A stretch of DNA of 53,947 nt, taken from positions 1 through 53,947 of the forward strand of contig JACPSE010000051.1 of assembly GCA_016193465.1 (NCBI GenBank), given 5' to 3'. The translations under genes were made by a program, and so were the position numbers. The notes under the pieces are model-generated. The model was not told the DNA's origin and made no database searches. It saw nothing but the letters and a program-made list of their open reading frames with translations. This stretch comes from Deltaproteobacteria bacterium. GTDB lineage: Bacteria > Desulfobacterota > Binatia > UBA9968. Below, one piece after another: positions 44,191 through 53,640 of the stretch; position 1 is the stretch's first letter; every line of letters begins with the position of its first letter.

Positions 44191-45186
44191 ATGCTGCTGA
44201 AGGAGCTAGGTGAGTTTGGCCTGATCGAAAGGATCCGTCAGGCCACCCCAAAGGGTCGCGGGGTGCGTATCGGGATCGGGGATGATGCCGCGTGGCTGGA
44301 CTGTAGGAACCACTCCCTCCTTGTTACTTCGGACCTGCTCATCGAGGGAATCCACTTTAACCTGAAATGGACCTCATTCTATGCCTTGGGGTACAAGAGC
44401 CTCGCCGTGAACCTGAGCGACATCGCCGCCATGGGAGGGCGCCCTGATTACCTGATTCTTTCCCTGGGCATCCCAGTTGACTTCAAGGCCGAGAATGTAG
44501 AAGAATTCTACTGTGGCATCAGGGCTCTTGCATCCCAAAGCGGTGTCGCGCTAGTGGGCGGGGATACGAGCGCATCGAGCCGTCTCTTCGTCAATGGCTG
44601 TCTGCTCGGCCATGCTCCGCGCAGGCCAGTTACTCGGAGTGGCGGAAGGGCTGGAGATGACCTCTGCGTTACCGGAACTTTAGGAGACTCCGCCCTGGGA
44701 CTGAAACTCCTGAAACAAAAAAGCGTCCGAGGCAATAATAAGGAGCATACCTATCTCATCTCCCGCCACCGTTTTCCAACCGCTCGTCTTAAGGCAGGAA
44801 TCATGCTAGCGCGGGAAAGGCTCGCAAAGGCGATGATCGACGTGAGCGACGGGTTGCTGCAAGATTTAACCCATCTCTGTAAAGCAAGCGGCATGGGCGC
44901 CGTGATCTGGGAGGATGCCCTGCCTCTTTCCCGCGCCTACCGGACCCTTGCCGGCAAAAAAGGGCCGCTCTACGCCCTCACGGGCGGAGAGGATTACGAG
45001 CTCCTCTTTTGTCTGAGACGCCGGGACCGGGGTCGACTGGAAAAAATCAAAAAGCATCTGGGAGTCCCCATAGCCCGGATCGGCACGTGCGTTGCCGCTC
45101 GCGAAGGGATAAAAATTATCAACCGCCAGGGAAGTCCTCTATCCATCTCTATTACAGGCTACGATCACTTCAGAAACAGACACTAG
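44191..45186 (+). CDS. thiL: Thiamine-monophosphate kinase ThiL
   Basis: A 331-residue ThiL that phosphorylates thiamine monophosphate to the active diphosphate cofactor. Family motifs are RIGIGDDAAWLD, LLVTSDLLIEGIHFNLKW, GYKSLAVNLSDIAAMGGRPDYLILS, VALVGGDTSASSRLFVNG and AMIDVSDGLLQDLTHLCKASG, followed by LTGGEDYELLFCL, covering the metal-binding aspartates and the PurM-like fold. Length is normal. It stands between lon and larB without other thiamine genes in view. Confidence 0.96.
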   Translation: MLLKELGEFGLIERIRQATPKGRGVRIGIGDDAAWLDCRNHSLLVTSDLLIEGIHFNLKWTSFYALGYKSLAVNLSDIAAMGGRPDYLILSLGIPVDFKAENVEEFYCGIRALASQSGVALVGGDTSASSRLFVNGCLLGHAPRRPVTRSGGRAGDDLCVTGTLGDSALGLKLLKQKSVRGNNKEHTYLISRHRFPTARLKAGIMLARERLAKAMIDVSDGLLQDLTHLCKASGMGAVIWEDALPLSRAYRTLAGKKGPLYALTGGEDYELLFCLRRRDRGRLEKIKKHLGVPIARIGTCVAAREGIKIINRQGSPLSISITGYDHFRNRH

Positions 45187-45264
45187 GGTTCAGTGGCGCG
45201 ACATATGCCAAATAGTAAGGGAAGAGCACTCCGGCGCCGACCCGGAAGGATAGACAGAAGGTAG

Positions 45265-46014
45265 ATGGACGCGCAGGCGCTAGCAGGGCTTTTAGAAGGG
45301 GTGCGGCGCGGCAAAGTAAGTGTCTCGCGGGCGCTAGAGAGGCTGCGCCATCTTCCCTTTGAGGATCTTGGTTTTGCCAAGGTAGACCACCATCGCGCGC
45401 TCAGGCAAGGCTTCCCAGAAGTCATCATGGGAGAAGGAAAAGAACCGTCTGAAATCGCTGCCATTGCGCGGGCTATGCAGCGCCGCCGGGCAAATGTCTT
45501 GATCACCCGACTTTCGGCAGAGAAAATGGCTAGGCTCAAGAAACAAATCAAGGGGCTCCGTTATCAGCCAAGAGCACGCGCGGCGACCTGGGTCGCAAGG
45601 CCCATTCGTCAGCGCGGACGGGGTTCCGTCTTGATTGTCTGCGCGGGAACGTCGGATATCCCGGTGGCGGAGGAAGCAGCGCTGACGGGGGAAATAATGG
45701 GCAACCGCGTGGAGCGCCTGTTTGATGTCGGGGTCGCCGGCATCCACCGCCTGTTAGAGAACCGGGAAAGGCTTTTTTCAGCCTCCGTCCTGGTGGTGGT
45801 TGCGGGGATGGAAGGGGCACTACCCAGCGTGGTCGCGGGGCTGGTTGACAAGCCAGTCATCGCTGTCCCAACAAGCGTGGGCTATGGGGCCAGCTTCCAT
45901 GGCATCGCCGCACTTTTGGGGATGCTGAACTCCTGCGCCGCTGGAGTGATGGTAGTGAACATCGACAACGGATTCGGAGCGGGCTTTGCAGCCAGCCTCA
46001 TCAATCGGGTATAA
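45265..46014 (+). CDS. larB: Nickel-pincer cofactor biosynthesis protein LarB
   Basis: A 249-residue LarB, the nicotinate-adenine-dinucleotide carboxylase/hydrolase that makes the precursor of the nickel-pincer cofactor of lactate racemase-type enzymes. The N-terminal segment has [50 protein letters not shown]. The C-terminal PurE-like domain has [52 protein letters not shown] and [21 protein letters not shown], with the active-site Cys in the last. Length matches the family. larC, larE and any lactate racemase are absent from the window, so the pathway partners must lie elsewhere. Confidence 0.94.
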
Positions 46015-46025
46015 GTTCATTGCCT

Positions 46026-46340
46026 ATGCAGTGCTTTCACTGCGGCCGGGAGGTACGGGAGACGACGCATACCCAAAAGGGATACCGGGTAGATTATTAC
46101 CTGCTCCATACGGGACGGACGGAGTGGGCCTTCCTCAAAGACCCCAAAGAGGATGGAGCTACGCTTCACTACCTCAAATTACAGGACCCCATAGACATCG
46201 TCAGTTGTGCCGACTGTTATGCCAATCCACAGATTCGACAGCGGCTGGAGCAAGACTTCAACGGATCGGCGTCGATCCTGAACGGAGAGGGAGTAAAGGC
46301 TGCGGAAAAGAATACTTCACCCCAACCGGACCATGGATAA
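46026..46340 (+). CDS. Small protein with two CxxC pairs
   Basis: A 104-residue protein starting MQCFHCGREVRETTHTQKGY (CxxC near residue 3), with a second pair CADC near residue 61, suggesting a structural zinc site. I do not recognise a named family. ATG 46026 is chosen; a TTG at 46020 is an alternative. It begins 11 bp after larB and overlaps the archease gene by 8 bp, so it belongs to the larB-archease operon. The middle contains an aromatic segment (YLLHTGRTEWAFLKD). Confidence 0.75.
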   Translation: MQCFHCGREVRETTHTQKGYRVDYYLLHTGRTEWAFLKDPKEDGATLHYLKLQDPIDIVSCADCYANPQIRQRLEQDFNGSASILNGEGVKAAEKNTSPQPDHG

Positions 46341-46758
46341 CCTAAAGAGATATCGCATTTTGACCCGTTCCTCGGACTTGGCCATTAAAGTCTTTGGCAA
46401 GACTCAGGCCGAGCTCTTCACCAACTCGGCCTTCGCCCTCTTTGACCTGATGACCGATGTCGAGAAGGTAGAGGTGCGCGACCACCTGCCCCTGGAGGTG
46501 GAGGGAGTGGATCGCGATGACCTCATGGTCAACTGGATGCGCGAGCTCCTCTACCTTTTTCAGGGGAGCGGATACCTGCTGAAAGAGTTCCAGGTCCTCG
46601 AGGCCAAGGAGACTTACGTCCGAGGGCAGGTGAGCGGGGAAAAATACGATCCTGATCGTCACGAGCTGCAGCGCGAATTTCGTTCCGTGGTCTACCACCA
46701 AAGCCGGATGGAAAAGACCGGGGACCAGTGGACGGCCCAAGTGATCTTCGAGCTCTGA
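46333..46758 (+). CDS. Archease family protein
   Basis: A 141-residue archease. It starts NLKRYRILTRSSDLAIKVFGKTQAELFTNSAFALFDLM, matching the archease N-terminus including the metal-binding Asp, followed by LEVEGVDRDDLMVNWMRELLYLF and the C-terminal YDPDRHELQREFRSVVYHQ and WTAQVIFEL. In known systems archease speeds multiple turnover of the RtcB RNA ligase, usually from an adjacent gene. Here rtcB is not in the window; neighbours are a small Cys protein and an HD phosphohydrolase. The HTAD motif of typical archeases is RSSD here, so the activity may be altered. Confidence 0.9.
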   Translation: MDNLKRYRILTRSSDLAIKVFGKTQAELFTNSAFALFDLMTDVEKVEVRDHLPLEVEGVDRDDLMVNWMRELLYLFQGSGYLLKEFQVLEAKETYVRGQVSGEKYDPDRHELQREFRSVVYHQSRMEKTGDQWTAQVIFEL

Positions 46759-46763
46759 GGAAA

Positions 46764-48167
46764 ATGGCGCAACCGATCGAGAGCGAATATGAAGGGATCG
46801 CCCTGGTGGCCGATCCCATTCACCGCTACGTCCCGTTCACGGTGCCGCAAGCAAAGGGGGAGGTCACAGAGAAAGAGATCATCGATTCCCCCTGGGTTCA
46901 AAGACTGCGCTATATCTATCAGCTCCAGAGCGCCCGCTGGGTCTTTCCCTCGGCAGAGCACAGCCGATTCCAACACTCCCTTGGGGCGATGCACCTCGCG
47001 GGCGAGTTTGCCAGGCACCTCTATCCCTCGCTGCGACGGGTCTTGGGAAGCGATTGCCCCTCTGCCCCTTTTATCGAAGAGTACATGAGAATCACCGGGC
47101 TGCTGCATGATGTCGGCCACGGCCCTCTCGGCCACTTTTTTGACGATAACTTTCTGGCCGATTTTAAAATCACCCACGAGGACATAGGGCAGAGCATCAT
47201 CCAAGAGAGACTGGGCGCCTTAATCGCTCAACTGCGGCGCAGTCCCAGCGGCGTCTTTGCTGCCGGCGAAGAGTTGCGTCCCGAGGATATCGCCTTTCCC
47301 ATCAAAAAGAACGGCAAGGACGACCACCGTAAGCCCAGGTGGGTAAGGCTGCTCCAACCTTTGACCAGTGGCATCTTTACTTTCGACAATCTCGACTACG
47401 TTTCGCGCGACTCCTACATGTGCGGCGTCGCCGTCGGGCCCATCGATCGCGACCGGCTCATGCACTATAGTTTTTTCTCCCCCAAGGGGCTCACCCTCCA
47501 CAAAGCAGGAAACGCAGCGCTAACGATGTTTTTGAATGCCCGGCTCTACCTTTACACCAACGTCTATTATCACCGTACCACCCGCGCCATAGATCTCCAC
47601 CTGAGGGAAATCTTCCCCGGGACCATGAAGGTAATTTTCCCGGGAAACCCGCTGGACCATATGGAAGCGTACCTCCATCTCACCGACTGGTCTCTGCTGG
47701 AGGAAGTCTCGCGCTGGCGCCGAAGCAAAACCCCAAACCAATCGTTGACACGCGAATGGGGGAGAATCCTGGACCGCGACATCAAATGGAAGATGGCCTA
47801 TGACCGGACCCTCTCCTTGAACGAACTGCGCTATGGCGTAGCCTTGATCCAGGACACCGATTGGGAAAAGCGGATCCGGGCGGCGCTTCCCCCCTCGGCC
47901 CACGACCTGGTATTCCGAGTAGATATGGCAACTCAAGACCCCCGGCCAGAAAGCCCGTTCGCCATGGGAAAGAAGCAGATCTATATCTTCGATCCCTCCA
48001 CCGGCGAGATCGAGAAGGAATCCCTCTCCGAGCTTTTCGAGTTCATCCCTTCCAAGGTGGTGCAGTTCCGGGTCTTCGCCCTGGATCACGAGAACGACCG
48101 CCTGCTGGCCGAAGTAGCCGAAGCGACCCTTAAAGGCGGGACGCCTGCCGTAAAGACGAGCGTATAA
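46764..48167 (+). CDS. HD-domain phosphohydrolase (YdhJ/dGTPase-like)
   Basis: A 467-residue HD superfamily protein of the dGTPase-like group. It starts with DPIHRYVPFTVPQAKGEVTEKEIIDSPWVQRLRYIYQLQSA, a signature of this COG1078-type family. The metal site is formed by SAEHSRFQHSLGAMH, RITGLLHDVGHGPLGHFFDD and later IFTFDNLDYVSRDSYMCGV. ATG 46764 is chosen because GAGG lies 5 bp upstream and the frame opening at 46728 lies inside archease. It starts 5 bp after the archease stop. The substrate could be a dNTP or another nucleotide; an antiphage dNTPase role is known for some HD proteins but nothing here shows it. Confidence 0.92.
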   Translation: MAQPIESEYEGIALVADPIHRYVPFTVPQAKGEVTEKEIIDSPWVQRLRYIYQLQSARWVFPSAEHSRFQHSLGAMHLAGEFARHLYPSLRRVLGSDCPSAPFIEEYMRITGLLHDVGHGPLGHFFDDNFLADFKITHEDIGQSIIQERLGALIAQLRRSPSGVFAAGEELRPEDIAFPIKKNGKDDHRKPRWVRLLQPLTSGIFTFDNLDYVSRDSYMCGVAVGPIDRDRLMHYSFFSPKGLTLHKAGNAALTMFLNARLYLYTNVYYHRTTRAIDLHLREIFPGTMKVIFPGNPLDHMEAYLHLTDWSLLEEVSRWRRSKTPNQSLTREWGRILDRDIKWKMAYDRTLSLNELRYGVALIQDTDWEKRIRAALPPSAHDLVFRVDMATQDPRPESPFAMGKKQIYIFDPSTGEIEKESLSELFEFIPSKVVQFRVFALDHENDRLLAEVAEATLKGGTPAVKTSV

Positions 48168-48177
48168 AGTCAGCCCC

Positions 48178-49368
48178 ATGAAGGTTCCTCTCCTTGACCT
48201 CAAAGCGCAGTATCGAAGGATCGGGGCCGAGGTGCGTCAGGCGATCGATGAAGTTCTGGAATCCCAGCAGTTCATCTTAGGCCCTACGGTGCAAAGATTC
48301 GAGGAGCAGGCAGCTTCCTATCTGCAATGTAGCTCTGCCATTGGCGTTGCCTCTGGCAGCGATGCGCTGCTCCTCTCCCTGATGGCGCTCGGTATCGGCG
48401 CCGGCGATGCGGTTGTGGTCCCGCCTTTCACCTTTTTCTCTACGGTATCGTGCATCACACGCCTCGGCGCAACTCCCATTTTCGTTGACATCGATCCTGA
48501 GGGCTGTCTGCTGGACACAAGGAAGGTAGAGGCGCTATTTGAAGAACGCTGCCGCCCCAACCCTGATGGGCAAGGTCTGATAGAATCGCAGAGCCAGCGA
48601 CAGATCAAGGCTATCCTGCCGATTCATCTCTTCGGTCAATGTTGCCCTATGGCGCCGCTTGTTAGCCTTGCCCAAAGGCACCGCCTCCACATCGTCGAGG
48701 ACGTTGCTCAGGCGTTTGGCGCCAGCGCCTTGCCCTCCCCAGGTGTTGCCAAGCCGGCGGGTACCGTTGGGGACTTGGGCTGTTTCTCCTTTTTCCCGAC
48801 AAAAAATTTAGGCGCCATGGGCGACGGCGGGCTGGTGGTAACGAACCAAAAGGCGCTGGCCGCAAGGGTAAAAATGCTTAGGACCCACGGGGCAAACCCA
48901 AAGTACCATCATCAGGCCGTAGGGCTGAATTCCCGTTTGGATGCCATACATGCCGCTGTGCTAACCGTCAAGCTCCGCCATGTGGAACAGTGGTGCCAGG
49001 AGAGGATCCGGCGCGCCCGTCTCTATCAAAAGCTTTTCTCGGAAACTGGCCTGGTGGGAAAGCAGATCATTGGCCTTCCTCCCTTAGGCAGTGGAAAGAG
49101 CCATGTCTTTAACTACTACGTGATCCAGGTGAAGCAGAGAGACGAGCTAAGACAATACCTCAGGCAGCAGGGAATTCAGAGCGAGGTCTACTATCCCCTT
49201 CCCCTGCACCTGCAGCCCTGTTTTGCTGACCTCGGCCATAAGAGGGGGGATTTTCCCAACTCAGAACTCGCGGCCTCCCAAGTCCTTGCCCTCCCCATGT
49301 ATCCGGAGCTCGCCCTGAAACAGCAAGGAGTCGTGGTCCAGGAAATCAAAAACTTTTACCGCGCCTGA
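48178..49368 (+). CDS. DegT/DnrJ/EryC1/StrS-family aminotransferase
   Basis: A 396-residue PLP-dependent enzyme of the sugar aminotransferase family. Motifs are VPLLDLKAQYRRIGAEVRQAI, QFILGPTVQRFEEQAASYLQ, GVASGSDALLLSLMALGIG, HIVEDVAQAFGA and FFPTKNLGAMGDGGLVV, with the PLP-binding Lys in PTKNLG near residue 211. Such enzymes transfer an amino group to keto-sugars of nucleotide-linked sugars for O-antigens or antibiotics. It is located between the HD protein and the SIS-domain gene, so it may contribute an amino sugar to surface glycans; the substrate is unknown. Confidence 0.94.
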   Translation: MKVPLLDLKAQYRRIGAEVRQAIDEVLESQQFILGPTVQRFEEQAASYLQCSSAIGVASGSDALLLSLMALGIGAGDAVVVPPFTFFSTVSCITRLGATPIFVDIDPEGCLLDTRKVEALFEERCRPNPDGQGLIESQSQRQIKAILPIHLFGQCCPMAPLVSLAQRHRLHIVEDVAQAFGASALPSPGVAKPAGTVGDLGCFSFFPTKNLGAMGDGGLVVTNQKALAARVKMLRTHGANPKYHHQAVGLNSRLDAIHAAVLTVKLRHVEQWCQERIRRARLYQKLFSETGLVGKQIIGLPPLGSGKSHVFNYYVIQVKQRDELRQYLRQQGIQSEVYYPLPLHLQPCFADLGHKRGDFPNSELAASQVLALPMYPELALKQQGVVVQEIKNFYRA

Positions 49369-49432: not shown

Positions 49433-49531
49433 ATGGCAAAGGCGCCACTGGTGCGAAGGCTATTTGAGGAGGCCTTAGCCCGCCACGGCATTAAGGGCCG
49501 GATGGAAAAATATCACCAAAAAAATCCATGA
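49433..49531 (+). CDS. 32-residue ORF translationally coupled to the SIS-domain gene
   Basis: The ORF encodes a basic 32-residue peptide, MAKAPLVRRLFEEALARH followed by a lysine-rich end. It has the best ribosome binding site in the region (AAGGAGGAGG, spacing 1-3 bp from the ATG). Its TGA overlaps the ATG of the SIS-domain gene (ATGA at 49528-49531). It may be a true small protein or a leader peptide controlling translation of the downstream gene. Amphipathic-helix character is suggested by the spacing of hydrophobic and charged residues. Confidence 0.55.
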   Translation: MAKAPLVRRLFEEALARHGIKGRMEKYHQKNP

Positions 49532-50103
49532 AAGACGCAATCGCCAAAGCTTTCGAGGAAAGCATCCAGGCAAAAAAATCGTTCCTCAAGGAAAATCTCA
49601 GCACGCTGATGACAACCATCGAGGTGATCGCGCAGGCCTTTCTGCGCGGCAACAAGTTCCTCATCTTGGGAAACGGCGGCAGCGCCGCAGATGCGCAACA
49701 CATCGCCGCGGAATTTGTCAATCGCTTTCGCATTGAAAGGCCCCCTCTGCCCGCGCTGGCCCTCACTACCGACACCTCCGCCATCACCAGTATCGCCAAC
49801 GACTACGATTATAAGGAGATCTTTGCCAAGCAGATCAAGGCTCTGGGGAAAGAAGGGGACGTGGTCCTTGCCATCTCCACAAGCGGCAATGCCGCGAATG
49901 TCCTGGCAGCGATTGAGACCTGCAAAAAGCTCAAGATCATCACCGTGGGGCTCACCGGCGGCGACGGCGGCAAGATGGCACGGCAAGTGGACTACCTCTT
50001 GCGTGTCTCTGAAGGCAAAAACACCGCGCGCATCCAGGAAACCCACATCCTGGTCGGCCACGTCATCTGCGAGATGGTGGACCAGAGGCTCTTCTCCGTG
50101 TAG
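49528..50103 (+). CDS. gmhA: SIS-domain phosphoheptose isomerase-like protein
   Basis: A 191-residue SIS-domain protein of the GmhA/DiaA group. Motifs are NKFLILGNGGSAADAQHIAAEFVNRF (phosphosugar binding), ALTTDTSAITSIANDYDYKEIFAKQI and VVLAISTSGNAANVLAAIETCK. GmhA converts sedoheptulose 7-phosphate to D-glycero-D-manno-heptose 7-phosphate, the first step to LPS core heptose. The length (about 192) and the SAADAQH motif fit. DiaA, a replication-initiation regulator, is a close paralogue, so the symbol is probable rather than certain. Translation is coupled to the 32-residue ORF. Confidence 0.88.
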   Translation: MKDAIAKAFEESIQAKKSFLKENLSTLMTTIEVIAQAFLRGNKFLILGNGGSAADAQHIAAEFVNRFRIERPPLPALALTTDTSAITSIANDYDYKEIFAKQIKALGKEGDVVLAISTSGNAANVLAAIETCKKLKIITVGLTGGDGGKMARQVDYLLRVSEGKNTARIQETHILVGHVICEMVDQRLFSV

Positions 50104-50121
50104 CCCTCCTCCCTTCCGCCA

Positions 50122-51069
50122 ATGGCAAAAAAAAACTTCAAGCCGCTAGATCTCTCCAAGGTCAGAACCTATCCGCTGAAAAAGCGCTTTAGCAAAGTCA
50201 ACCAAACCCTTTTAGGAAAAAAGCTGCAAAAAGGCGCTCGCCTGCGCTCTTTTATCCGAGGACTCCCGGATATCCTCGCGGCGCAAAATCTCAAGGAGAT
50301 CGTCCGCAGGATCGCACGCGCACACCGCAACGATAAGACCATCCTTTTAGGGATGGGCGCCCACCCGATCAAAGTCGGCCTTAGCCCGCTGATTATAGAC
50401 TTTATGGAAAGGGGCATTGTCAGCGCCGTGGCGCTGAACGGCGCCGGCATCATCCATGACTTCGAGATCGCCTTTATGGGCGAGACCTCCGAAGATGTCG
50501 CCACCAGCCTCAAGGATGGGAGCTTCGGCATGGCGGCAGAGACCGGCAGCTTCTTGAACCGCGCCATCACCCGGGGCTACGACCGAGGGCAAGGAATCGG
50601 CAGAGCTGTCGGCGAGGCGATTCTCAAAGCCCGTCTGCCCAATCACCGGCTGAGCATCCTTGCCAGCGGCGCGAGACTGGGCATTCCGGTCACTGTCCAC
50701 ATCGGCATCGGCACGGACATTATTCACATGCATCCCGGCGCCGACGGCAAGGCCTTGGGGGAAGGAAGCCTGAAGGACTTTCATACCCTGGCCTCGGTGG
50801 TGGCGACGCTCAGGGACGGAGTGTTTCTCAATCTGGGCTCTGCGGTGATCCTGCCTGAAGTGTTCTTAAAGGCCCTGAGTCTGGCACGCAACCTGGGCCA
50901 CCCGGTCCGCAACCTCACCACCGTCAACCTCGACTTTATTCCCCACTACCGCCCGCTCACCAACGTGGTCACCCGCCCCACCCTGGACAGCGGCAAGGGA
51001 TACCACCTCACCGGTCATATGGAGATCATGGTCCCGTTGCTCTTCGCCGCGATTCTGGAGGAGTTATAG
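50122..51069 (+). CDS. Conserved protein of uncertain family (deoxyhypusine-synthase-like fold suspected)
   Basis: A 315-residue soluble protein without signal peptide. Strong family-like blocks are visible: ILLGMGAHPIKVGLSPLIID, ALNGAGIIHDFEIAFMGETS, VTVHIGIGTDIIHMHPGAD, LNLGSAVILPEVFLKALSLAR and NLDFIPHYRPLTNVVTRPT. I associate these with a bacterial family whose fold resembles deoxyhypusine synthase, but the hypusine lysine site of true DHS is not evident. It begins 18 bp after the gmhA-like gene and is surely co-transcribed, suggesting a sugar-phosphate or nucleotide-sugar role. The histidine-aspartate motifs (IHDFE, IIHMHP) could bind metal. The function is unknown. Confidence 0.82.
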   Translation: MAKKNFKPLDLSKVRTYPLKKRFSKVNQTLLGKKLQKGARLRSFIRGLPDILAAQNLKEIVRRIARAHRNDKTILLGMGAHPIKVGLSPLIIDFMERGIVSAVALNGAGIIHDFEIAFMGETSEDVATSLKDGSFGMAAETGSFLNRAITRGYDRGQGIGRAVGEAILKARLPNHRLSILASGARLGIPVTVHIGIGTDIIHMHPGADGKALGEGSLKDFHTLASVVATLRDGVFLNLGSAVILPEVFLKALSLARNLGHPVRNLTTVNLDFIPHYRPLTNVVTRPTLDSGKGYHLTGHMEIMVPLLFAAILEEL

Positions 51070-51431
51070 TGCCAGGAACTCTTATCCCTTGGCTCCAAGT
51101 GCCTCCTTGTCGGGACGGTCCGTTCGGGGACTCACCTCGCGCGCCGAAAGCAATGGGTCAGTGGGCTCTTTAAAGCGTTCACTCTCGGTGCTTTCGGCTT
51201 GCTCGGCAAGCCCCCTCACTCTCAGAGGAGAGGCCGAGGGGAGCGCGAGTGAGGCTGCGGACAAGCCCTGCGGGATCTCAAATGGCAGATCTCAAATTGC
51301 AAATATGAGATCTGAAATCTGCAATCTGAGATTCCGAGCGCAGCGAGGACAGCCCATCGGCCGCAGCCGAGAGCGCGTTCCCCGAGGACTCGGTCTATCG
51401 GCTGCGCTCGGAGGAGCCAGCCTTGCGTAAA
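51070..51431 (+). repeat. Repeat-rich non-coding spacer with nested inverted repeats
   Basis: No real gene is visible. Inverted repeats follow one another: GCCGAAAGCA/TGCTTTCGGC (51143-51152, 51189-51198); the hairpin GGCTTGC-TCG-GCAAGCC (51196-51212); CTCACTC/GAGTGAG (51215-51221, 51247-51253); AGATCTCA/TGAGATCT (51287-51294, 51306-51313) within degenerate 'atttgagat' units; and a perfect 12-bp pair TCCGAGCGCAGC/GCTGCGCTCGGA (51333-51344, 51401-51412). The pattern suggests REP/BIME-like elements or remnants of a transposed element. Confidence 0.6.
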
Positions 51432-52103
51432 ATGAAAATTTCCCGTCGAGAATTGATGCAGCTCTACCGCCGCCTTTACCGTCATTACGGCAACCTCCAG
51501 TGGTGGCCGGGGGACACTCCATTGGAGATCTCCGTAGGCGCGATCCTCACGCAAAATACCGCCTGGACCAATGTGGAAAAGGCGATCAAGCGCCTCAAAG
51601 AGACGCGCTCTCTGAACGTCGCTGCGTTAGCGCGGATGAGTCATAGCCGCCTGGCGCCCCTTATCAAGTCGGCAGGCTATTTCAACGTAAAGGCGCGACG
51701 GCTTAAGCATTTCATCTCCTTTCTTCAGGGACACTACGGCGGCAGTTTAAGAAAAATGTTTACGCAGAAGCCGTCTCATCTGCGTGAAGAGCTTCTCTCC
51801 GTAAACGGCGTGGGGCCTGAAACGGCCGACTCCATCCTGCTCTATGCCGGGCAGAAACCTTCTTTTGTCATCGACGCCTATACCAAAAGGATCCTCTCGC
51901 GCCACGGTGTCATGCCGTACGAAAAGAGCTACGATGACTTTCGACAACTCTTTATGAAGCACCTTCCCCCGGATGCGCCTTTCTACAACCAGTACCACGC
52001 CATGTTCGTCAACGTGGGGAAAGATTTCTGCCGCAAGAAACCTCTCTGCGACTCCTGCCCCCTCAACGGCTGGCGCAGCGTCCCCCCGCTCCGGACCGAC
52101 TAG
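51432..52103 (+). CDS. HhH-GPD DNA glycosylase, MagIII/Nth-like
   Basis: A 223-residue helix-hairpin-helix base-excision glycosylase. The N-terminal half has GDTPLEISVGAILTQNTAWTNVEKAI and the hairpin is LLSVNGVGPETADSILLYAG followed by FVIDAYTKRI with the conserved Asp. At the position of the Nth catalytic lysine (GVGRKTAN) there is Glu (GVGPETAD), as in MagIII-type 3-methyladenine glycosylases, so an AP-lyase activity is unlikely. The C-terminal cluster is CRKKPLCDSC with only three cysteines instead of four, so a standard 4Fe-4S site is doubtful. ATG 51432 is used; TTG 51423 is possible. Confidence 0.87.
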   Translation: MKISRRELMQLYRRLYRHYGNLQWWPGDTPLEISVGAILTQNTAWTNVEKAIKRLKETRSLNVAALARMSHSRLAPLIKSAGYFNVKARRLKHFISFLQGHYGGSLRKMFTQKPSHLREELLSVNGVGPETADSILLYAGQKPSFVIDAYTKRILSRHGVMPYEKSYDDFRQLFMKHLPPDAPFYNQYHAMFVNVGKDFCRKKPLCDSCPLNGWRSVPPLRTD

Positions 52104-52153: not shown

Positions 52154-52423
52154 ATGGCGGATAGTCCCCCACAAATTACCGATCTGACTAGGAAGTTTGA
52201 GCAGAACATTGACTCTTACCGCAATCAAGCCTACGGCGAGGCCGAGGTCCGGGTGGAATTCATCAACCCGTTCTTTGAAGCCCTTGGCTGGGACGTAACC
52301 AACAAGGCGGGCTATGCCGAGGCCTACAAAGATGTTATCCATGAAGATGCCATTAAAGCGGGCGCGACAAAAGCACCAGTCTTCACAATTTTATTGAAGC
52401 AAATTGCTGTGAGTTTCGTCTAA
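52154..52423 (+). pseudogene. N-terminal stump of a restriction-modification enzyme-like gene
   Basis: The 89-residue frame starts PPQITDLTRKFEQNIDSYRN and continues EAEVRVEFINPFFEALGWDVTNKAGYAEAYKDVIHEDAIK, which is the N-terminal region of type IIG/type I-like restriction-methylation proteins that normally exceed 900 residues. The resemblance stops at TKAP (about position 52376), followed by about 15 unrelated residues and a stop. The nuclease core, methyltransferase and target-recognition regions are absent. It sits 184 bp before the broken integrase, so the truncation is likely tied to the mobile-element history. Confidence 0.75.
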
Positions 52424-52607: not shown

Positions 52608-53640
52608 ATGGAAGATTCGAAAGTGAGAAATCTAGTTGACTACAAGCTCAGAGCAACAAATCAGAGCAGACAACCGGGCATGAACTCCTCTCCTCCGTCG
52701 GTCTCGCCAAAGCCTAAGCTCCTGGAGCAAGTCCGGCAGGCCATCCGCACGCGCCACTATAGCTACAAAACCGACGAGGCCTATGTCGGGTGGATAGCGC
52801 CACCCGGCGGAGATGAGTGAGGTAGAGATCGCGCACTTTCTTTCCAGCCTCGCCAGTGACTCCCATGTCAGTGCCTCGACGCAGAACCAAGCTTTGAATG
52901 CCCTCTTGTTTCTGTACCACGAGGTGTTGGCTAAGGACATCGGCTACATCAACGGTGTTGTCCGGGCGAAAAGGCCCAAAATCCTACCCGTAGTGCTGAC
53001 CCGGCAGGAAGTCAAGTCGCTCATCGACTTGCTTCATGGCACCGAATGGATCATGGCTACGCTCCTTTACGGTGGTGGCCTTCGTCTCCTAGAATGCATG
53101 CGACTCAGAGTAAAGGACATTGACTTTAGCAGTAACCAGATCGTGGTTCGGAGTGGAAAAGGTAGCAAGGACAGGCTGACAATGCTTCCCACGTCCATAA
53201 AGGAGCCTTTGCGTAGGCATCTGGAGTGGGTAAAGAAACAATACCAGAGGGACTTGCAGAGGGGTTACGCCGGTGTGTCATTGCCATACGCCCTTGAACG
53301 CAAATATCCTAATGCGGCCAAAGAATGGGGTTGGCAATGGGTGTTTCCGGCCTCGAAGCTTTATATCGAGCGGGGATCGGGTGTTACAAAGAGGCATCAT
53401 CTTCATGAATCGGTTTTACAGAGAGCGGTAAAAGAAGCGGTCCGAAAAGCCGGTATAGCTAAAGCGGCGAGTTGCCATACCTTCCGCCACTCTTTTGCAA
53501 CCCACCTACTTGAGGATGGGTATGACATTAGGACGGTTCAGGAGCTGCTAGGACATAAGGAGGTAAGCACCACCATGATTTACACTCACGTTCTAAACCG
53601 CGGCGGGCGGGGCGTTTTCAGCCCGGCGGATCGGCTGTAA
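52608..53640 (+). pseudogene. Integron-type tyrosine recombinase (IntI-like), broken by a short deletion
   Basis: Two frames together encode an IntI-type recombinase. The first (52608-52820) has KLLEQVRQAIRTRHYSYKTDEAYVGWI then shifts. The second (from 52813) resumes with [19 protein letters not shown] and runs to the end. In intact family members YVGWI is followed by about RRFILFHGKRHPAEM; here the DNA after TGGATA jumps to GCGCCACCCGGCGGAGATG, which reads RHPAEM in the second frame. About 26 bp are therefore missing. The catalytic set is intact ([38 protein letters not shown]), as is the IntI-specific insertion ([16 protein letters not shown]). The strong GGGAGG ribosome site before 52608 remains. 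As read it makes no full enzyme. Confidence 0.85.

Follow-up and report, generated by a model that had tools for sequence, protein, structure and literature searches.

A GSU2086-family protein encoded beside gmhA, a candidate heptose-phosphate epimerase in place of HldD

The window, that is, the whole stretch of 53,947 nucleotides that was analyzed, carries an SIS isomerase gene of the gmhA type followed on the same strand by a gene for a 315-residue protein of the GSU2086 family, with 18 bp between the end of the former and the start of the latter as given by the ORF coordinates (Table 1). A preliminary description of this DNA had reported the pair, its spacing, and the DegT aminotransferase gene upstream, and its coordinates proved exact. 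The larB gene lies 4.1 kb upstream on the strand of the GSU2086-family gene. It belongs to a one-strand series at 44191-48167 consisting of thiL, larB, an unknown 106-aa protein, archease, and an HD protein.

Table 1. Features of the gmhA and GSU2086-family locus
Feature	Position	Strand	Details
larB, nickel-pincer cofactor biosynthesis	45265..46014	+	NF033503, 300.5 bits (cut-off 175)
DegT/DnrJ/EryC1 aminotransferase gene	48178..49368	+	Upstream neighbor; profile match
gmhA-type SIS isomerase gene	49528..50103	+	191 aa; ORF, Pfam/NCBIfam profile matches
GSU2086-family gene, proposed heptose-phosphate epimerase	50122..51069	+	315 aa; NF052581 match
Motif NGAGIIHDFE, residues 106-115	50437..50466	+	N106, H112, D113, and E115 at least 99% conserved (n = 124)
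Motif IGTDIIHMHP, residues 196-205	50707..50736	+	D199 and H202 100%, H204 98% (rounded); kept in plasmid paralogues
Motif LNLGSAVILPEVF, residues 236-248	50827..50865	+	E246 100%; kept in plasmid paralogues
YRPLTNVVTRP, residues 276-286	50947..50979	+	R277 and R285 invariant; P286 aligned with the catalytic lysine of DHS

Several features were found downstream of the pair. The intergenic stretch at 51126-51412 contains a direct repeat of 14 nt (GATCTCAAAT...) as well as four inverted repeats, imperfect or perfect, and no RNA element reached its gathering score between 44000 and 53947. An HhH-GPD DNA glycosylase (Pfam) is encoded at 51423-52103; its nearest NCBIfam model is a 3-methyladenine glycosylase, the cut-offs not being reached. 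Close to the contig end, an integron integrase (52813-53640; TIGR02249, 414.5 bits, cut-off 265) is encoded by an ORF that, as read, begins at position 41 of the model, and a chromosomal integron possibly continues past the contig end. The DNA glycosylase and integrase genes flank an 89-aa ORF (52154-52423) for which an NCBIfam search gave nothing and which may be akin to the N-terminal part of a restriction enzyme subunit.

The SIS protein matched SIS_2 in Pfam (E 8e-28), and its top NCBIfam matches were phosphoheptose isomerase models, under their equivalog cut-offs. For TIGR00441, the score was 191.9 bits against a cut-off of 209.45; among 297 genomes from the phylum of the window, only 32 pass this cut-off. 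Aligned to GmhA of Escherichia coli, the protein keeps H61, E65, Q172, and H180, with S124 replaced by Ala; we take Glu65 and His180 of the E. coli enzyme to be catalytic.

The 315-residue protein matched NCBIfam NF052581, the GSU2086 family, at 426.5 bits (cut-off 250, E 6.7e-128) along the full length of the model (1-301 of 301), and was the single match to this family in its genome. The family has no assigned function and was the only confident match, so the protein is uncharacterized, as had been stated; the result that would have refuted the earlier reading, a confident match to an enzyme already known to act on some unrelated substrate, did not turn up in the profile searches. Among 14 well-known control genomes, none had a match above the NF052581 cut-off, three archaea giving matches below it, and the protein found no phage match at E 1 or better.

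Conservation was evaluated in an alignment of 124 sequences, comprising the window protein and the 123 near-full-length members of a set of 125 distinct sequences. At least 98% conservation was observed at 61 positions of the 315-residue protein. Judged by its sequence, the ORF is real, because the whole-model match together with these 61 positions excludes a chance reading frame; the conserved blocks named in the preliminary description, IGTDIIHMHP, LNLGSAVILPEVF, and NGAGIIHDFE, are all present. The conserved polar residues, each at 98% or more (rounded), include H81, K84, H112, E115, H193, D199, H202, H204, D219, E246, K250, D271, R277, and R285. Of these, K250, just past LNLGSAVILPEVF, is 100% conserved. 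Two divergent GSU2086 paralogues occur on plasmids of Solidesulfovibrio and of a Chloroflexota bacterium (L138:14456-17537 and L139:15098-18528). They keep all of the listed polar residues, K250 included, except K84, which is arginine in both. Across 14 sequences including these two paralogues, which are 37-40% identical to the window protein, 22 polar columns are invariant, a regularity that reads as an active-site pattern. Residue 300 (51019-51021) is Met in the window protein and His in 95% of the aligned sequences. Apparent gene fusions, seen as open frames of approximately 500-880 aa at some loci, were rejected: eight ORFs of at least 490 aa are frames that overlap gmhA in another reading frame.

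We used 130 loci, made up of 50 from whole genomes (the 30 best and 20 picked by place) and 80 from named contigs, to evaluate gene pairing; L017 and L046 refer to one and the same position, and the loci were counted without further deduplication between sets. The flank was only about 1.5 kb at 30 of them. In 103 of the 130, gmhA closely precedes the family gene on its strand, with gene centers within 1.6 kb. The remaining loci comprise 3 at a contig edge without room, 2 with a gmhA match elsewhere in the locus, and 22 without any. The neighbors scanned at such loci were mostly unrelated housekeeping genes, and several loci had no heptose gene nearby. Other heptose genes did adjoin the family gene in places. 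Specifically, in an Omnitrophota locus an HldA ORF directly follows it (384.7 bits, cut-off 345) and four waaF-like genes lie upstream, and in L051 hldE and gmhB lie downstream. Relatives of the DegT gene were near the family gene at only 2 of the 130 loci (30 with about 1.5 kb of flank), both close relatives; the DegT gene of the window is probably outside the heptose system, and the amino-sugar synthesis offered as an alternative in the preliminary description thus gains little support. A conserved link to larB was rejected, larB being near the family gene at 1 other locus of the 130 (L054, from a close relative; 30 with about 1.5 kb of flank), which is also the sole locus where thiL, larB, archease, and HD are grouped again.

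In Geobacter sulfurreducens, the order by locus tag is hldE (GSU2085), GSU2086, and gmhA (GSU2087), as given in PMC5585712. The gmhA neighbor is as in the window; the hldE neighbor differs, the genome of the window having hldA and hldC together on another contig. The same paper describes the GSU2086 product as hypothetical, assigns the gene to an operon for sugar biosynthesis, and gives similar Tn-seq values for growth on electrodes: -3.1 for hldE, -3.2 for GSU2086, and -3.7 for gmhA, where insertions may be polar. The operon with hldE and gmhA is thus already visible in that paper. Full-text literature searching found one paper naming GSU2086 and none giving a function for the family, none joining deoxyhypusine synthase and heptose, and no useful paper on the structure of LPS heptose in Geobacter; the excerpts of PMC8824477 and PMC8305020 held nothing bearing on the function of the family.

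The distribution of the family was compared with that of heptose genes in 68 genomes picked for completeness, 51 with the family and 17 without, using E limits of 1e-20 for GmhB, 1e-25 for GmhA, and 1e-30 for HldA, and the model's own cut-off for HldD. GmhA was found in 46/51 genomes with the family vs 7/17 without it, GmhB in 47/51 vs 8/17, and HldA in 50/51 vs 14/17. HldD was rarer in the presence of the family, at 6/51 vs 8/17. Replacement of GmhB by the GSU2086 family was rejected on the basis of the GmhB count. In the genome of the window, a profile search found no HldD, and a GmhB-like gene (below cut-offs) lies beside two heptosyltransferase-like genes on a further contig.

The same opposition to HldD was observed in 297 genomes of the window's phylum, 180 of which carry the family when six genomes with matches below its cut-off are counted as negative. 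HldD occurred in 12/180 genomes with the family vs 52/117 without it (Fisher 1.5e-14, ancestry ignored). Among the 250 gmhA-positive genomes the figures were 11/170 vs 45/80 (Fisher 1.1e-17, ancestry ignored), and among the 47 gmhA-negative genomes, 1/10 vs 7/37, there was no association (p 0.67). Shared ancestry inflates the unstratified p-values. Upon stratification by taxonomic family, the HldD signal is modest, with a chi-square of 9.45 for the 279 genomes with an assigned family, and weaker in the gmhA-positive set, at 4.71. In a hand-picked high-quality subset (at least 95% complete, at most 100 contigs), HldD was found in 5/70 genomes with the GSU2086 family vs 37/61 without it. Each of five taxonomic families (f5, f21, f30, f57, and f91) contains GSU2086-only members as well as HldD-only members. 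Similarly, in a 198-genome sample of a second phylum, that of a Nitrospira genome, HldD occurred in 3/144 genomes with the GSU2086 family vs 29/54 without it (Fisher 1e-16, ancestry ignored), and none of the 12 family-bearing genomes behind the named loci has HldD. Neither gene is obligatory, since among the 297 genomes the 12 with HldD carry both and 35 gmhA-positive genomes carry neither. Ten family-positive genomes in this set had no gmhA match at E 1e-35.

An AlphaFold2 model of the protein, calculated with 25 family sequences as input, had a pLDDT of 90.9 and a pTM of 0.88. Using Foldseek against the PDB, all 50 of the matches listed were deoxyhypusine synthases (DHS), and VIA-align related the predicted model to the whole-chain fold of DHS (PDB 7cmc, 1dhs) with a Z of 22.0 over 275 aligned residues at 3.6 A. 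The C-terminal ornithine cyclodeaminase domain of AgrE/ArgZ and an archaeal LOR/SDH protein (PDB 6lrg, 3c2q) likewise have a fold like the predicted model (Z 20.4-21.3, 205-219 residues). The resemblance to DHS that had been described thus holds at the level of the predicted fold and fails at that of sequence. The protein scored 22.2 bits with Pfam DS (PF01916), under the cut-off of 27, and the score with TIGR00321 (DHS) was 17.0 bits against a cut-off of 304.25.

Weak matches to the DS profile were seen in 23 of the 25 family members, and weak matches to ornithine cyclodeaminase/LOR-SDH models (TIGR00300, NF052526, PF21570) in 10-14 of them. The best E value among the 25 for an NCBIfam ornithine cyclodeaminase model was 3.8e-4, under cut-off, and a plasmid paralogue scored 23.5 bits with TIGR00300/ArgZ, for which the cut-off is 410.8. 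The two plasmid paralogues barely passed the ArgZ-like PF21570 model (30.0 and 30.3 bits, cut-off 27), with which the window protein gave no match. The HD.E part of NGAGIIHDFE is common to ornithine cyclodeaminases in an alignment to AgrE/ArgZ. When a full-length ornithine cyclodeaminase (L140) was aligned instead, the C-terminal half was unreliable at residue level. The HD.E segment and a predicted dinucleotide-type domain appear to be shared with ArgZ/TIGR00300, and NGAGIIHDFE is a putative dinucleotide-site loop. Unlike those of the ornithine cyclodeaminases, the partners of the GSU2086 family are a sugar isomerase and a kinase and not enzymes of arginine metabolism. In the DHS reaction, the dinucleotide takes a hydride and then returns it, and ornithine cyclodeaminases likewise use borrowed-hydride chemistry. 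The title of the AgrE entry 6lrg is that of a complex with ornithine and NAD+.

Both plasmid paralogues are accompanied by an SIS isomerase and an HldA-like kinase, all of which score below the heptose equivalog cut-offs. The plasmid of Solidesulfovibrio carbinolicus has, in order, an HldE-like fusion with its two domains swapped, the GSU2086-like gene, and the SIS isomerase gene, within a glycan cluster that also holds pseudaminic-acid genes. That of the Chloroflexota bacterium has a HAD hydrolase, the GSU2086-like gene, an HldA-like PfkB kinase, and the SIS isomerase, with annotated sugar-transport genes adjoining them. The paralogues may make or break other heptoses. Given the recurring combination of isomerase, GSU2086-family protein, and kinase, the likeliest substrate of the family would be a sugar phosphate. 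Scanning five neighbors on the Chloroflexota plasmid revealed no nucleotidyltransferase, which also favors action on a sugar phosphate.

Based on these data, the GSU2086-family protein very probably belongs to the heptose pathway. The preliminary description had suggested that it may catalyze a step of heptose synthesis, and the suggestion is strengthened by the pairing with gmhA, by HldA or HldE neighbors at some loci, by the positive association with GmhA, HldA, and GmhB and the negative one with HldD, and by the similar Tn-seq values of the Geobacter genes. Tentatively, and with a little less than even confidence, we propose that the protein is a redox-neutral, dinucleotide-dependent heptose-phosphate epimerase that replaces HldD. 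Its partners in ADP-heptose synthesis would be GmhA and HldA, the heptose-phosphate kinase, and in most hosts it would take the place of HldD. A dinucleotide-type cofactor bound on the DHS/ornithine-cyclodeaminase fold would take a hydride from a carbon of the sugar, in the simplest case C6 of D-glycero-D-manno-heptose 7-phosphate, and would return it on the opposite face to yield the L-glycero epimer ahead of ADP activation. The choice of cofactor, reaction, and carbon is inferred, and so is the stage within the pathway. HldD (RfaD; TIGR02197, ADP-glyceromanno-heptose 6-epimerase) has the proposed job and pathway and a largely complementary distribution. It is an SDR-fold enzyme and not a relative of the GSU2086 family, and its substrate stage differs from that proposed here.

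The pairing and co-occurrence data also fit an enzyme of the heptose pathway with a different product, one that epimerizes or oxidoreduces another carbon of a sedoheptulose or heptose phosphate. The core sugar would then not be L-glycero-D-manno-heptose, and HldD would be absent as another heptose is used; its absence might also reflect the simple use of D,D-heptose. The paralogues, one in a pseudaminic-acid type cluster and the other beside a sugar-uptake cluster, accord with a different product in that they show the module in settings other than the LPS inner core, as do the 12 genomes with both genes. We nevertheless consider a different product unlikely: the family and HldD trade places within five taxonomic families and again in a second phylum, which looks more like same-job replacement than a new sugar. 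It is more doubtful still that a conventional SDR epimerase does the job of HldD, leaving the 315-residue protein another supporting role with GmhA. A TviC/GalE-like SDR epimerase gene does lie within about 2 kb of hldA at 5 of the 19 hldA loci read from genomes that carry the family and lack HldD (G045, G010, G089, G147, and G013), and the five products are 46-60% identical to each other. These genomes were, however, picked for an SDR match sharing a contig with hldA, and the stretches read at the other 14 loci contain no SDR epimerase. Moreover, the best model for the SDR proteins is a UDP-sugar C4-epimerase, and they fall under the cut-offs of all models listed. In those five genomes the SDR protein could substitute for HldD, and our confidence in HldD replacement by the GSU2086 family is tempered accordingly.

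A role as a partner or regulator of GmhA without enzymatic activity of its own would be consistent with the frequent pairing with gmhA. The 22 invariant polar columns, with their apparent active-site pattern, and the 22 of 130 loci without gmhA make this role very improbable. A true DHS-like transferase, moving an aminobutyl or aminopropyl group to a sugar or protein, is suggested by the top fold matches and the weak DS profile matches, yet we regard it as the least credible of these explanations. The catalytic lysine of DHS sits in an SW(G/N)K motif, and in a low-scoring but ungapped aligned stretch it corresponds to the invariant Pro286 of the GSU2086 family; Lys292, near its place, is conserved in 41% of the sequences (n = 124). 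The score with the DHS model is also far below its cut-off.

For the proposed epimerase, NAD+ remains the default cofactor. The related ornithine cyclodeaminases are labeled nickel-pincer-nucleotide dependent by NCBIfam. In the case of TIGR00300 this is a database name for which literature searching found no supporting paper, nor was a paper found that joins the nickel-pincer nucleotide and ornithine cyclodeaminase. The nickel-pincer-nucleotide epimerases of the LarA family, which is different from GSU2086, perform hidden-redox epimerization, the chemistry proposed here. LarB was found in 158/180 genomes with the GSU2086 family vs 92/117 without it (p 0.05; 297 genomes, unfiltered) and, in high-quality genomes, in 69/70 vs 44/61 (p 1e-5), a filter set after the first count. 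The association is a lead only, because LarB, the sole lar marker counted, is common in the phylum for other possible reasons. According to PMC11796402 (2024), approximately 15% of the genomes analyzed there lack larA although they have larB, larE, and larC, and a cofactor user other than LarA is expected. It is a long shot that the GSU2086 family is such a user. The enzyme would then be a nickel-dependent sugar-phosphate epimerase with the DHS/ornithine-cyclodeaminase fold, producing L-glycero-D-manno-heptose 7-phosphate ahead of nucleotide activation and replacing HldD across several phyla.

If the proposed epimerase is real, many Nitrospira-type and deltaproteobacterial genomes would own a complete L,D-heptose route by way of an enzyme unrelated to HldD, and a gap in the pathway would be closed for a large fraction of the sampled genomes. 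It would also explain why a hypothetical protein scored as necessary when Geobacter grows on electrodes, and would mean that the DHS fold can support a sugar epimerase. Finally, were the enzyme nickel-pincer dependent, it would answer what else uses the nickel-pincer nucleotide.
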